From Phycisphaerales bacterium (GTDB taxonomy: Bacteria; Planctomycetota; Phycisphaerae; Phycisphaerales; UBA1924): DNA of 64,000 bases. Both the position numbers and the translations under genes were made by a program. The DNA is taken from positions 62,001-126,000 of the forward strand of contig JAJDDK010000005.1 of the NCBI GenBank assembly GCA_029260345.1, read 5' to 3'. Below the pieces are notes generated by a model. The model had not been told where the DNA came from and made no database searches. It was given only the letters and a program-made list of their open reading frames with translations. Positions 49,298 to 54,964 of this stretch are shown piece after piece; position 1 is the first letter of the stretch; each line of letters begins with the position of its first letter.

Positions 49298-52132
49298 GTG
49301 ATACGACCAATCATTCAAAATTTGAACGTCACAGCGCTCGCCAAGTGCTGCGTCGCCATCAGCGCCATCGCGCTTATGTGCGCCACAACCGCACGCGCCG
49401 GTGATCCGCTTCCATCGCGCGAAGGCATCCTCGACACCACGCTCGACAACGGCCTGCGCGTTATCGTCGTCCCGCATGACAACCCGCCGGGACGCACCGT
49501 CCTGCGCCTCATCGTCGACGCCGGTTCACTTGACGAACTCGATAACGAGCGCGGCGTTGCGCACGTCATTCAGCACATGGCCTTTCACGGCTCGGATCAA
49601 TTCCCCGCCGGCTCCGCCCGCCGCGTGTTTCAATCACTGGGCATGGAGCTTGACCGACACGAAAACGCCTACACCACGTTCGATCACACCGTGTACACGC
49701 TCAATCTCCCCGGCGTTTCCGAATCCGTCCTCGACAAAGGGTTGACGTTCCTCAGCGACGTGCTCGACGGCCTCACGTTCCCCGACCCCGCAATGGAAAC
49801 CGAGCGCAGCGTCATCCTCGACGAAATGCGCCAGTACGACTCGCCCGAACGACGCGTCTTTCAGCGCATCCTTCCTGCGCTGGCGCCCGGAAGCCTCGTC
49901 AGCGAACGCTTCCCTACCGGCGACACCGAATCCATCGACGCCATGATGCGCGAGCAGTGCGTTGCTTTCTACTCGCGCCTGTACACGCCGGACAACAGCA
50001 CGCTTCTGGTCGTCGGCGATGTTGAGATCGACGCCGTCCGCACGTTGATCGTTGAGCATTTTGCGCCGATCAAGCCGCGAAAGTCCGCGCAGCGCCCCGA
50101 ATCCGGCGTGCGTCCATTCACCGAACAACACGCGCTCGTCGTGACGGATCCCGAACTCGTGCGCGGCGTCGTCGCGGCCATCGCCGTCGGCCCGCCCACC
50201 GAACCCGCCCGTCATGGCTCGCAATTCCGCGACCAACTCGTCGATCAACTCGTACGTCAACTCATCACCCGGCGCCTTGAGGCGAGATCATTCAACGGCG
50301 AGGCGTCTTATGCAGGCAACGGCATGTACGTCGGCAATGCCTACGGCGCCATGTGGATAGGCCAGATCGTTTTAATCGGTCCGTCCAGTCGCTCCCCCGG
50401 CATGCTTGCAGACCTCATCTCCGAAATCGAACGCGCCCGCCAGTACGGATTTACTGACGCTGAAGTGCAACTCGCGCGCGAGACGCTCCTCGCCGAAGCA
50501 CGCTCCATCGCCGAAGGCGAAGCCAATCTGCCCGCGACCTCCATTGCCGGACTCCTGACCGAACCCATCGTCGCAGACGCGCCATTGATTTCGAGCGGAC
50601 AAAACTTTGCCCTTCTCGAAAAACTGCTGCCCACCATCACCGCGGCGAATGTCACCGATCGATTCATCGAGATGTTTGCCCCCGAGCGCACCGCGATCCT
50701 GGTCGAACTCGGCGACGGCGTCCCTGTTCCAACCGAAACTGCGGTGATGAAGGACGTTCGCAGGATCGCAGCACAACCCGTCGCCCCACCCCAATCGCCC
50801 GTTGCGCTTCAGGCGCTTCTGGAAACACCTCCCGGGCGCGCTTCACTGGATTCGGCCGACCTCGACGCCGCCAGTGGTGTGCTGACCATGCACTTCGAGA
50901 ACGGCGTCGTCGCGCACCACCGTTTGATGAACGAGCGCGCCTCCGAAGTCACCCTGCGCCTCACGCTGGCTGGCGGCGAAATCGAAGAGGACGCCACCAC
51001 CCGCGGCCTCACTCGCGCGGCTTCCGTTGTCTTCGATCGCCCTGCAACGCAAACCCTCACCGGCCTTACCGTGCGCGACTTCCTGTCCAGTCGCGGCATT
51101 TCAATTCGATCGCGCGTGTCACTCGACGCCGTCACCATCGAAATTGACACGCCGCGCGATCAGATCAACGCGGCGTTCCAGCTTCTCTACCTCACGCTCA
51201 TCGACCCCATCATCGAACCGGCGGGGCTTGACGATTGGCGCCAGCGCGAAACCGCTCGCGCCCTGCGCCGCAGCACGCAAACTGGCGGCCTCGTCGAAGA
51301 CGCGCTCGTTGCCACCATGTATCCCGCAGACGAAGTGCGCGTGCGATCTCTCACCCCGGAGTTGATCGAACGCATCGACGTGGACGCGGCTCAAACCTGG
51401 CTGCGCAATCTCGTGCTCCGCGCCCCGATCGAACTCTCCATCGTCGGCGACATCTCACGAAGCGCCGCCGCCGAGCTTGCGTCTCGTTACGTCGGCAGCC
51501 TGCCGGCGCGAGCGACGATTGACCACACCGCATTCGCCGAACGACGCAAGGTGCAGCGTGCCAAAGCGCCCTTCAAGCGCACGATCACCACAACGACGCA
51601 GTCCGATCAGGCCGTCGTGGCCGTCGGATTCGTCGGCCCCGACAGTGATGACATCGAAGAGGCGCGCGTGCTCGATGTCGCGGAGCGCGTCCTGCGCCCT
51701 CACCTGATCCAGAAGCTGCGTGATGAACTCGGCCTAGTGTCGTCCGTCACTATGACCAACCGACCCGCACAAGCGCTGCCCGGCTTCGGTCTCTTTCTGG
51801 TGATCGCGCCAACCAGCCCGGCACAATCATCACTCGTCGCCGACCTTATCGATCGCGAGTTTGAACAGCTCGCACTGGGCGGCCCCGGTCTGCTGGATGT
51901 CGTCATCGCACAATCCCAACTCGCCAGCGCCGCAAGTGAATCGCTTCTTGAGCCCGAACACTGGTCGAAGCAGCTCGCCGACATGCGCTATCGCAATCGC
52001 TCGCTCCCCGGCGTCACCCAGAGCGCGACCGCCCATCAGGATGTTGAGCCATCGCACGTGCGAGACGCCCTGGCGCACCGGCTCTCCGTCGGCAACCGCA
52101 TTCGCATCATCATCCTCCCTGAGGACGAATAA
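49298..52132 (+). CDS. exported M16 (pitrilysin-type) protein with catalytic Glu replaced by Gln
   Basis: 944 residues: signal peptide (about 1-34) and four M16-type domains, like PqqL or bacterial zinc proteases. The active-site motif HxxEH reads H89-V-I-Q92-H93: both zinc histidines are present but the catalytic Glu is Gln (codon CAG). The third zinc ligand is plausibly Glu in ETERSVILDEMRQ (about 167-179). The second half has no HxxEH. The same Glu-to-Gln change in insulin-degrading enzyme abolishes catalysis, so this may be a zinc-binding pseudoenzyme. GGGAG precedes GTG 49298. Full length, no frameshift. Confidence 0.87.
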   Translation: MIRPIIQNLNVTALAKCCVAISAIALMCATTARAGDPLPSREGILDTTLDNGLRVIVVPHDNPPGRTVLRLIVDAGSLDELDNERGVAHVIQHMAFHGSDQFPAGSARRVFQSLGMELDRHENAYTTFDHTVYTLNLPGVSESVLDKGLTFLSDVLDGLTFPDPAMETERSVILDEMRQYDSPERRVFQRILPALAPGSLVSERFPTGDTESIDAMMREQCVAFYSRLYTPDNSTLLVVGDVEIDAVRTLIVEHFAPIKPRKSAQRPESGVRPFTEQHALVVTDPELVRGVVAAIAVGPPTEPARHGSQFRDQLVDQLVRQLITRRLEARSFNGEASYAGNGMYVGNAYGAMWIGQIVLIGPSSRSPGMLADLISEIERARQYGFTDAEVQLARETLLAEARSIAEGEANLPATSIAGLLTEPIVADAPLISSGQNFALLEKLLPTITAANVTDRFIEMFAPERTAILVELGDGVPVPTETAVMKDVRRIAAQPVAPPQSPVALQALLETPPGRASLDSADLDAASGVLTMHFENGVVAHHRLMNERASEVTLRLTLAGGEIEEDATTRGLTRAASVVFDRPATQTLTGLTVRDFLSSRGISIRSRVSLDAVTIEIDTPRDQINAAFQLLYLTLIDPIIEPAGLDDWRQRETARALRRSTQTGGLVEDALVATMYPADEVRVRSLTPELIERIDVDAAQTWLRNLVLRAPIELSIVGDISRSAAAELASRYVGSLPARATIDHTAFAERRKVQRAKAPFKRTITTTTQSDQAVVAVGFVGPDSDDIEEARVLDVAERVLRPHLIQKLRDELGLVSSVTMTNRPAQALPGFGLFLVIAPTSPAQSSLVADLIDREFEQLALGGPGLLDVVIAQSQLASAASESLLEPEHWSKQLADMRYRNRSLPGVTQSATAHQDVEPSHVRDALAHRLSVGNRIRIIILPEDE

Positions 52133-52157: not shown

Positions 52158-52163
52158 TACACT
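52158..52163 (+). promoter_or_regulatory. -10-like hexamer TACACT, 7 nt before the rmuC ATG
   Basis: TACACT, seven nt, ATG 52171; no Shine-Dalgarno. Confidence 0.5.
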
Positions 52164-52170
52164 CCATTTC

Positions 52171-53487
52171 ATGAATCCGCTCGCCATCACGTTTCTCCTG
52201 CTCGCAGTTGCACTTGCCGTTGTCGCGGCGTGGCTCTTCCTTCAACGAAGCCGCCTGCAACGTGACCTCAACACGGAAACTGAACGCGCCCGCGCCGCCG
52301 AATCCGCCCGCGAACTCGCCGCGGCGCGCTTGGCCGACATCGAGAAGACACAACTTCAGATGCGCGATGCGTTCAAGTCGCTCGCCAGTGACGAGCTCAA
52401 GAACACCTCAACCGAATTTTTGAAGCTCGCCAAACAAACCTTCGCGGCGGAGCAGGAAAAAGCCAAGAGTGAACTCGAGCAGCGCAAACAAGCCGTGGAC
52501 TCACTCGTCAAACCACTGCACGAAAAGCTTGAGAAAACCGGCGAGACGCTCGGCAAGATCGAACAGGCCCGCATCGAGGCGTACGCCAAACTCGCCCAGC
52601 AAACACAGGACGTGCTGAAATCAAGCTCCGATCTGCGCCTCGAAACATCAAAGCTCGTCAAGGCGTTGCGCAAGCCTCAGGTGCGCGGCCGATACGGCGA
52701 AATCCAGCTTGAGCGCGTCGTCGAACTCGCCGGCATGCGCGACTACTGCGACTTCGACACGCAATCATCAATGACCAATTCGGACGGCGCCAAACTCCGG
52801 CCGGACATGGTCGTGCGTCTTCCCAATGAACGACTCATTGCCATCGACGCCAAGACCAACATCGATGCGTATCTCGACGCCATCGAAGCCGAAAGCCCGG
52901 AAGAATCCGAACAACACCTCGAGCGCTTCGCGCGCCACGTCGCCGAGCAAGCCAAGGCGCTGGCGAAAAAGGAATACAGCGCCCAGCTCAAGAACTCGCC
53001 TGAGTTTGTGGTGATGTTCATCCCCGGTGACCAGTTCATCGACGCCGCCTTGCAGCGCCAGCCGGAATTGCTGTCCCTCGCCGCCGATTGCCGCGTCATC
53101 ATCGCCAGCCCGTCCACGCTCATCGGATTGCTCCGCGCCGTCTACGTCGGCTGGCGCGAAAAGAGCTTGTCCGACAGCGCGCACGAGCTTTTCGAACTTG
53201 GCAAGGAGCTCCACGAACGCGCCGTCGTCGCGCTCGAAAGCGCTGCGAGCGTCGGCAAAGCGATCGACGCCGCCAAAGAGCGCTACAACAAATTCGTCGG
53301 CTCCGTGGATCGTCGCCTCATGCCGACACTGCGCAAGTTCGAAGAGAAGGGCGCCGCGAGTTCAAAGAAACTCGAAGCCCTCACCGAACTCGAAGGCGAC
53401 ACCAGATCAATTCAGTCGCTGCCAACGCCAACTGAATTGCCAGAAATCGTAACGCGACCACAGGTCGAATCCGAACCGCGCCCGTAA
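52171..53487 (+). CDS. rmuC: RmuC-family protein
   Basis: 438 residues. One N-terminal membrane helix (about 5-24), a long coiled-coil region (about 28-165), then the RmuC domain (about 170-370) with GRYGEIQLERVVELAG, RPDMVVRLPNERLIAIDAKTNI and FVVMFIPGDQFIDAAL, which carries the nuclease-like core of the family (D...DAK). RmuC limits DNA rearrangements such as inversions at short inverted repeats; that is notable given the palindromes here. The last residues (SEPRP) and the stop lie in a repeat copy. Confidence 0.9.
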   Translation: MNPLAITFLLLAVALAVVAAWLFLQRSRLQRDLNTETERARAAESARELAAARLADIEKTQLQMRDAFKSLASDELKNTSTEFLKLAKQTFAAEQEKAKSELEQRKQAVDSLVKPLHEKLEKTGETLGKIEQARIEAYAKLAQQTQDVLKSSSDLRLETSKLVKALRKPQVRGRYGEIQLERVVELAGMRDYCDFDTQSSMTNSDGAKLRPDMVVRLPNERLIAIDAKTNIDAYLDAIEAESPEESEQHLERFARHVAEQAKALAKKEYSAQLKNSPEFVVMFIPGDQFIDAALQRQPELLSLAADCRVIIASPSTLIGLLRAVYVGWREKSLSDSAHELFELGKELHERAVVALESAASVGKAIDAAKERYNKFVGSVDRRLMPTLRKFEEKGAASSKKLEALTELEGDTRSIQSLPTPTELPEIVTRPQVESEPRP

Positions 53488-53524: not shown

Positions 53525-54964
53525 TCACTCCGCCAACTGACGCCGCAGGTAGTTGATCAGATCAACTTTCGTAATCAGTCCCAAATACCGCCCATCATCA
53601 TCCACCACAATCGCCACCCGATCCGCGCGGAAGATCGGCAACAACTCCTTCACCGATGTTCCCGGCTTCACCGTCTCCAGGCGGCTTGTCATGTAATCGC
53701 TCACCGCTTTGCTGAACGCGTCCTTGCCCGAACTCACCGCCAGCAGAATGTCGCCTTCATCAATGATGCCGACGACTCGATCATGATTTCCCGGATCAAC
53801 CACCGTGAGCTGCGACACGTCATGCAGGCGCATCATTTTGAACGCCTGCTGCACCGGCTCATTTGGCTTGACGGTGTAATCCTCTTGCGCCGTATGCCGA
53901 CGCGCAATCAAATCTCGCAAATCATTATGCGACTCTCGATCGATGAACCCGTTATCGATCATCCAGTAATCGTTGAACATCTTGGACAGATACTTCGCGC
54001 CGGAATCGCAGATCAGCGTCACCACATTCAGCTTGCGCTCCTGCCGGCGACAAAACACCAGCGACGCATGCAAAATGCACCCTGTGGATGATCCCGTCAG
54101 CAGTCCTTCCCGTCGCAACAGATCTCGCGCCGCATGGAACGATTCCCCATCCGTCACCGAAATCGCTTCATCCACCAGATCAAGATCACAGATGTCGGGC
54201 ACGAAGTCTTCACCCATGCCCTCAACCAACCACGATCCCGGCTCGACAATCTTCCCCTCATTCACCAGCGGCGCCAGAATCGAACCCGTCGGGTCCGCCA
54301 GAATGATCTGACACTCCGGGTTCTGCTCCTTCAGAAACTTCGCGGCGCCAGCCAGCGTGCCGCCGGAACCGACGCCGCACACAAACGCATCCACTTTGCC
54401 GCCCGTCGCGGCATGAATCTGCTCCACAATCTCCGGACCGGTGTGCTCGTAATGCGCCACTGGGTTGTCCGGATTCGCAAACTGATTGATGTAGTACGAG
54501 TTGGGCGTTTCCTTGGCGATGCGAGCCGCGACTTCCTGGTAGTAGTCCGGGTGCCCCTTCATCACGTCGGAGCGCGTCATCACCACCTGCGCGCCCATCG
54601 CTCGCAGGTGCTGCACCTTTTCCTGACTCATCTTGTCAGGCATGACGACGATCAGCTTGTAGCCGCGCTGCGCCGCGACGAGCGCCAGGCCAATGCCTGT
54701 GTTCCCCGCCGTCGCTTCGACCAGCGTCGGCGCCGGGTCCGCCTTGGGATCAATGCGGCCGGATCGCTCCGCGCCTTCGATCATCGACATCCCGATGCGG
54801 TCTTTGATCGACCCCGCCGGATTGTTCGATTCCAGTTTTCCGAACAGACGACACGGACCGGTGTCCAGTTTGGAAAGCTCGAGCATCGGCGTGTTGCCGA
54901 TCATCTCAAGCACATTTCCGAACACCGGCGCCGCAACTTGTGCTGATTTTGTTCCGCCGCTCAT
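53525..54964 (-). CDS. cbs: cystathionine beta-synthase with C-terminal CBS pair
   Basis: 479 residues. A PLP-dependent beta-replacement domain (about 15-335): PLP Lys54 in NPAGSIKDRIG, the SxGNTGxGLA loop in ATAGNTGIGLALVAA, and the phosphate loop GVGSGGTLAGAAKFL. Two CBS domains follow (about 355-475), which could bind adenosyl ligands. It may condense serine and homocysteine or make cysteine from O-acetylserine; with cysE at 12 kb both routes are possible. No haem-binding N-terminus. Starts at ATG 54964 with TACACT 7 nt upstream. Confidence 0.9.
   Translation of the reverse strand: MSGGTKSAQVAAPVFGNVLEMIGNTPMLELSKLDTGPCRLFGKLESNNPAGSIKDRIGMSMIEGAERSGRIDPKADPAPTLVEATAGNTGIGLALVAAQRGYKLIVVMPDKMSQEKVQHLRAMGAQVVMTRSDVMKGHPDYYQEVAARIAKETPNSYYINQFANPDNPVAHYEHTGPEIVEQIHAATGGKVDAFVCGVGSGGTLAGAAKFLKEQNPECQIILADPTGSILAPLVNEGKIVEPGSWLVEGMGEDFVPDICDLDLVDEAISVTDGESFHAARDLLRREGLLTGSSTGCILHASLVFCRRQERKLNVVTLICDSGAKYLSKMFNDYWMIDNGFIDRESHNDLRDLIARRHTAQEDYTVKPNEPVQQAFKMMRLHDVSQLTVVDPGNHDRVVGIIDEGDILLAVSSGKDAFSKAVSDYMTSRLETVKPGTSVKELLPIFRADRVAIVVDDDGRYLGLITKVDLINYLRRQLAE

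Follow-up and report, generated by a model that had tools for sequence, protein, structure and literature searches.

A probable single-chain M16 pseudoprotease with HxxQH in place of the HxxEH motif in a Phycisphaerales bacterium

The 64,000-nucleotide stretch of Phycisphaerales DNA analysed here (the window) encodes a full-length M16 protein in which the HxxEH motif reads HxxQH. The question raised by this locus is whether a protein so altered still cuts peptides, or whether it belongs to a maintained lineage of pseudoproteases that puts the M16 fold to another use. The second answer was that of the original prediction, which had been made from the sequence of the window and had suggested that the protein may bind peptides or assemble with an active partner, as in the mitochondrial processing peptidase (MPP).

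An intact M16 clamshell with substitutions in both halves

The gene occupies positions 49298-52132 of the forward strand, where the frame is open over 944 codons from a GTG start; the opposite strand is broken up by stops along its whole length there. Its product contains the segment ...GVAHVIQHMAFHGS..., which includes H89, Q92 and H93, and it matches two Pfam domains, each over two stretches: PF00675 (Peptidase_M16; E=1e-24, 87.6 bits, against a curated cut-off of 22.3 bits) and PF05193 (M16_C; E=3.9e-32, 112 bits, against 23 bits). With both domains well above their cut-offs, the protein belongs to the M16 family by descent. Residues 1-34 (49298-49399, + strand) resemble a signal peptide, with a hydrophobic stretch followed by A-R-A, and a similar N-terminal stretch is present in every sister protein. 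With this segment ending in ..ATTARA immediately before G35, the protein looks like an exported one.

An AlphaFold2 model built from 32 sequences (pLDDT 90.9, pTM 0.88) is an intact two-half clamshell, and matches to M16 structures span its entire chain. The best full-length structural match is an M16 protein of P. gingivalis (9ldy; TM 0.89, Z 33.9, 2.4 A over 895 residues). The next matches are PqqL, FusC and then insulin-degrading enzyme, including the entry 2ypu. The best PDB sequence matches are likewise single-chain bacterial M16 proteins, namely 9ldy, PqqL (6ofs) and FusC (6b03). At about 20% identity, 9ldy has the same full-length fold, but it reads HFLEH at the place where the window protein, which has also lost a conserved tyrosine, reads HxxQH.

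The altered motif, H89-V-I-Q92-H93, reads as had been predicted; it lies at 49562-49576 (+), with the general-base Glu replaced by a Gln encoded by CAG at 49571-49573. The claim that the zinc ligands remain also stands: by sequence, H89 and H93 are accompanied by E176 (49823-49825, +), which occupies the position of the third, distal ligand in an invariant column of alignment A1. A second lesion, absent from the original prediction, affects the Arg/Tyr (R/Y) pair that in the C-terminal half of active M16 enzymes serves substrate binding and transition-state stabilisation (PMC12731061). Alignment with relatives places this pair at 51719-51742 (+), where active proteins read R-E-x-x-x-L-V-Y-S and the window protein reads R808-D-E-L-G-L-V-S815-S, so that the Arg is kept and the Tyr is lost. 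As judged from these alignments, the protein is without two catalytic residues, located in different halves, and not just one. Substrate-strand positions that are conserved in the active set differ as well (F118L, G119D, Q122E and N97H). A concentration of losses at the active site is not significant for the window protein taken alone (p=0.1) and is significant for several of its sisters.

Relatives and the history of the glutamine

The bacterial family to which the window belongs, within the order Phycisphaerales, is represented by about 90 genomes in the collection. Of these genomes, 41 have a full-length relative with HxxEH and 18, counting that of the window, have a full-length relative without it; contig ends truncate G045 and the active copy of G077. 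Active members (e.g. G009, G057 and G062) share 34-36% identity over the full length and the same architecture with the window protein, but they differ from it in reading HYLEH, in keeping R...Y intact and in lying, at 0 of 24 loci, beside rmuC. The nearest relative is that of G039 (40-41% identity), in which the motif is HLVQH, both His and the distal Glu are retained, and Gly takes the place of the R/Y Tyr. Because G039 also carries HxxQH at roughly 40% identity, an isolated error does not account for the Gln, and the prospect that it might be found in this sequence alone, which had been named as fatal to the original prediction, did not materialise. Two further relatives, in G040 (HILAH) and G041 (HIMSH), retain all three ligands and have Ala or Ser in place of Glu, whereas most of the remaining HxxEH-less relatives are without the zinc site; the entire group lacks the Glu. 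When contigs were scanned using nothing but the window protein, no relative emerged; an alignment-based scan, with a pattern allowing E or Q, did recover relatives, and no other HxxQH was seen among its 80 best named ones. Among 110 positions that are near-invariant in the active set, only the catalytic Glu is changed in 18 of 18 HxxEH-less rows, a result that is purely descriptive, since the rows were chosen for lacking HxxEH.

Rooted trees were computed with the active-site columns removed, using other planctomycetes, Verrucomicrobia and sulfate reducers as outgroups. Nine HxxEH-less rows group as a single clade nested within the active HxxEH family (100/99; 98% of bootstrap trees), and all 18 HxxEH-less relatives form one clade in a quick tree (SH-aLRT 98), although the long branches found elsewhere in this clade mean that some of the grouping may reflect long-branch attraction. 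An initial, poorly rooted tree had implied two label changes for the HxxEH-less rows and was superseded once better outgroups were used and the active-site columns were removed. The window protein and that of G039 are sisters (100/100), and many active members have end branches at least as long as that of the former (0.58), which argues that it is not decaying fast. These topologies fit a history in which the catalytic Glu was lost once, long ago, and the zinc site was lost later in most members.

The conservation of 18 HxxEH-less proteins at full length in one clade, together with the intact 944-codon frame, bears out the proposal of a full-length pseudoprotease whose gene is maintained. We regard the window protein as very probably a pseudoprotease, and the lost residues and the clade-wide loss suggest that it would not hydrolyse peptides. 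A full-length active copy occurs in 1 of the 18 pseudoprotease genomes, compared with 40 of the 72 others (Fisher p=1e-4, uncorrected for kinship).

Two observations concern the distribution of the family. G038 is the only genome seen to contain both kinds of protein; it has two similar HxxEH-less copies, L080 and L082 (RFAQT and RFAQE), and an active HFLEH copy elsewhere. In addition, two contigs filed under Rokuibacteriota and Methylomirabilota (L187 and L188) encode M16 proteins that score high to the Phycisphaerales family, and L187 nests inside that family in the tree; these are cases of either horizontal transfer or misplaced contigs.

Possible roles of a probably non-cutting clamshell

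The Gln stands at the same place in the same fold (TM ~0.75) as the one introduced into insulin-degrading enzyme by the Glu111-to-Gln change (2ypu). That protein is a laboratory mutant and keeps its Tyr, whereas the window protein occurs in nature, lacks the Tyr too and is part of a clade. The parallel, which the original prediction had drawn, holds for the swapped catalytic Glu itself (PMC3623905). In vitro, the mutant binds amyloid-beta stably and keeps it from aggregating (PMC3623905), and this behaviour would be the closest functional precedent for peptide holding. By analogy, replacement of the general-base Glu by Gln and of the transition-state Tyr by Ser would abolish cutting, H89, H93 and E176 would still bind zinc, and peptides in the periplasm would still enter the clamshell chamber, where they would be held or sensed but left uncut.

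Cutting itself may be left to the half-length M16B proteins of the genome. The search for active-looking M16 paralogues that the original prediction had called for yielded L001 (HFLEH, contig C5) and L004 (HFFEH, contig C6). Each has HxxEH and is without R/Y; conversely, L005, also on C5, and L003, the neighbour of L004 on C6, have R/Y and are without HxxEH. These smaller proteins look complementary, and from their motifs L001/L005 and L004/L003 look like complementary M16B sets that would be capable of ordinary peptide cutting. In L004, HFFEH and the distal Glu are also separated by a long insert.

We lean, by a modest degree, toward an exported single-chain pseudoprotease of the FusC/PqqL type that binds zinc and, instead of cutting peptides, holds or senses them. 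Because most of the clade is without zinc ligands, however, binding of zinc or peptide may not be the trait under selection, and the substitutions at substrate-strand positions (F118L, G119D, Q122E and N97H) also count against this reading. The main rival is a pure scaffold or subunit, in which the M16 fold would serve protein contacts as it does in the bc1 core proteins and the zinc ligands would be remnants undergoing slow decay. This seems to us possible and yet distinctly less probable. Sister proteins remain full length despite having lost their zinc ligands, and what almost all of them conserve is a set of glycines and other residues that are probably structural, as a scaffold would lead one to expect; on the other hand, all three ligands are kept in the window protein and in G039, G040 and G041 despite their long separation. 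Known M16 proteins that have lost catalysis and are nevertheless kept, such as alpha-MPP and the bc1 core proteins (PMC11266112, PMC12731061), resemble the window protein in this respect, but they are half-length subunits of heteromers, and the zinc motif is lost in alpha-MPP, whereas here the halves are fused in a single chain that keeps its zinc ligands.

The remaining explanations are all improbable. Slow hydrolysis, possibly of special substrates, might be supported by the Gln or by another residue, and the retention of the zinc ligands and Arg808 would agree with a working peptidase. Some weak activity is conceivable given that the Glu111-to-Gln mutant of insulin-degrading enzyme showed apparent residual activity of up to ~6% in one assay, a figure its authors suspect to be an overestimate (PMC3623905). 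We nevertheless think a working peptidase unlikely, as both the base and the Tyr are gone from the window protein, and the close sisters all lack the Glu and mostly lack the zinc site. Somewhat less likely still is a pairing with an active M16 protein, in which the window protein would be the dead partner, as alpha-MPP is to beta-MPP. Active-looking candidates are encoded elsewhere in the genome, but they look complementary among themselves. Moreover, MPP is built from a pair of half-length chains of which one is dead, and the 944-residue window protein already contains both halves, with no M16 partner gene found adjacent to 49298-52132; the MPP analogy of the original prediction is thus a weak one. 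Finally, one base change, GAG to CAG, would be enough for the Gln to have arisen by a sequencing error or by a recent mutation private to this genome. However, the Gln and the loss of the Tyr are common to G039, the sister clade is uniformly without the Glu and the reading frame is undamaged, making this explanation scarcely credible.

If the peptide-holding reading is extended beyond the window protein, an ancient lineage of exported single-chain M16 pseudoproteases might act as peptide holdases or sensors, with its HxxQH members (window and G039) as natural counterparts of the Glu111-to-Gln trap, at a stage preceding the loss of the zinc site in sister genera; we offer this wider proposal tentatively, as something doubtful rather than expected. 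In the papers cited here, the M16 pseudoproteases described either are half-length chains within complexes or form the non-catalytic half of an active enzyme, and no planctomycete M16 pseudopeptidase appeared among the ten best-ranked titles of a literature search, outside which most subscription journals lie. In the present lineage, the loss of catalysis from a single-chain exported M16 protein appears to have been a single event, after which the protein was kept at full length in ~17 genera. The graded series from HxxQH with intact ligands to no motif at all constitutes a natural test of what a non-cutting M16 clamshell does. Annotation by homology would label such HxxEH-less proteins zinc proteases.

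The rmuC locus

The M16 gene is followed by rmuC (52171-53487, +; 438 aa; PF02646, E=4.3e-88), which starts 39 nt after the M16 stop. This order is found in the window and in nine further genomes, and all ten M16 proteins are HxxEH-less. The arrangement is absent from the 24 active family loci mentioned above, and no M16 gene was seen upstream of rmuC in ~50 other family genomes examined, several of which are cut by contig ends. The same arrangement recurs in G091, a member of a different Phycisphaerales family, with an M16 protein that reads HFIEH. Because the M16 copy in this outgroup family is active, the linkage is probably older than the loss of the Glu, and M16-rmuC is probably an ancestral locus. 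In the window, purB lies upstream of the M16 gene; the other M16 loci showed no purB alongside, and it is for that reason placed outside the unit.

A -10-like box, TACACT (52158-52163, +), directly precedes the rmuC start and is a candidate promoter element. Similar TANACT boxes precede rmuC in most linked loci, and a follow-up set of 56 rmuC loci, nearly all unlinked, has them at 28. A simple M16-rmuC operon was accordingly downgraded as an explanation, as rmuC has a -10-like box of its own that many unlinked genomes share. Since the box occurs without a linked M16 gene, the adjacency is best taken to reflect a common history of the locus, which explains it at least as well as a common function would.

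Across genera, the TANACT box lies 6-10 nt before the rmuC start codon (52158-52173 in the window; L081, L083-L087, L089, L093 and L169), and TACACT also precedes a cystathionine beta-synthase-like gene whose start is at 54964 (-). The proximity of these boxes to start codons suggests that near-leaderless transcripts may occur in this group. Over the whole window, TANACT boxes before ATG or GTG are not over-represented (6 seen versus 8.7 in shuffles). Genes for LptF/LptG-like permeases and a NUBPL-like P-loop NTPase had no match beside the M16-rmuC pair of the window. In several sister loci (L081, L083, L084, L086 and L089), the pair lies near LptF/LptG-like permeases upstream, and the NUBPL-like NTPase is among the shared genes beyond rmuC.
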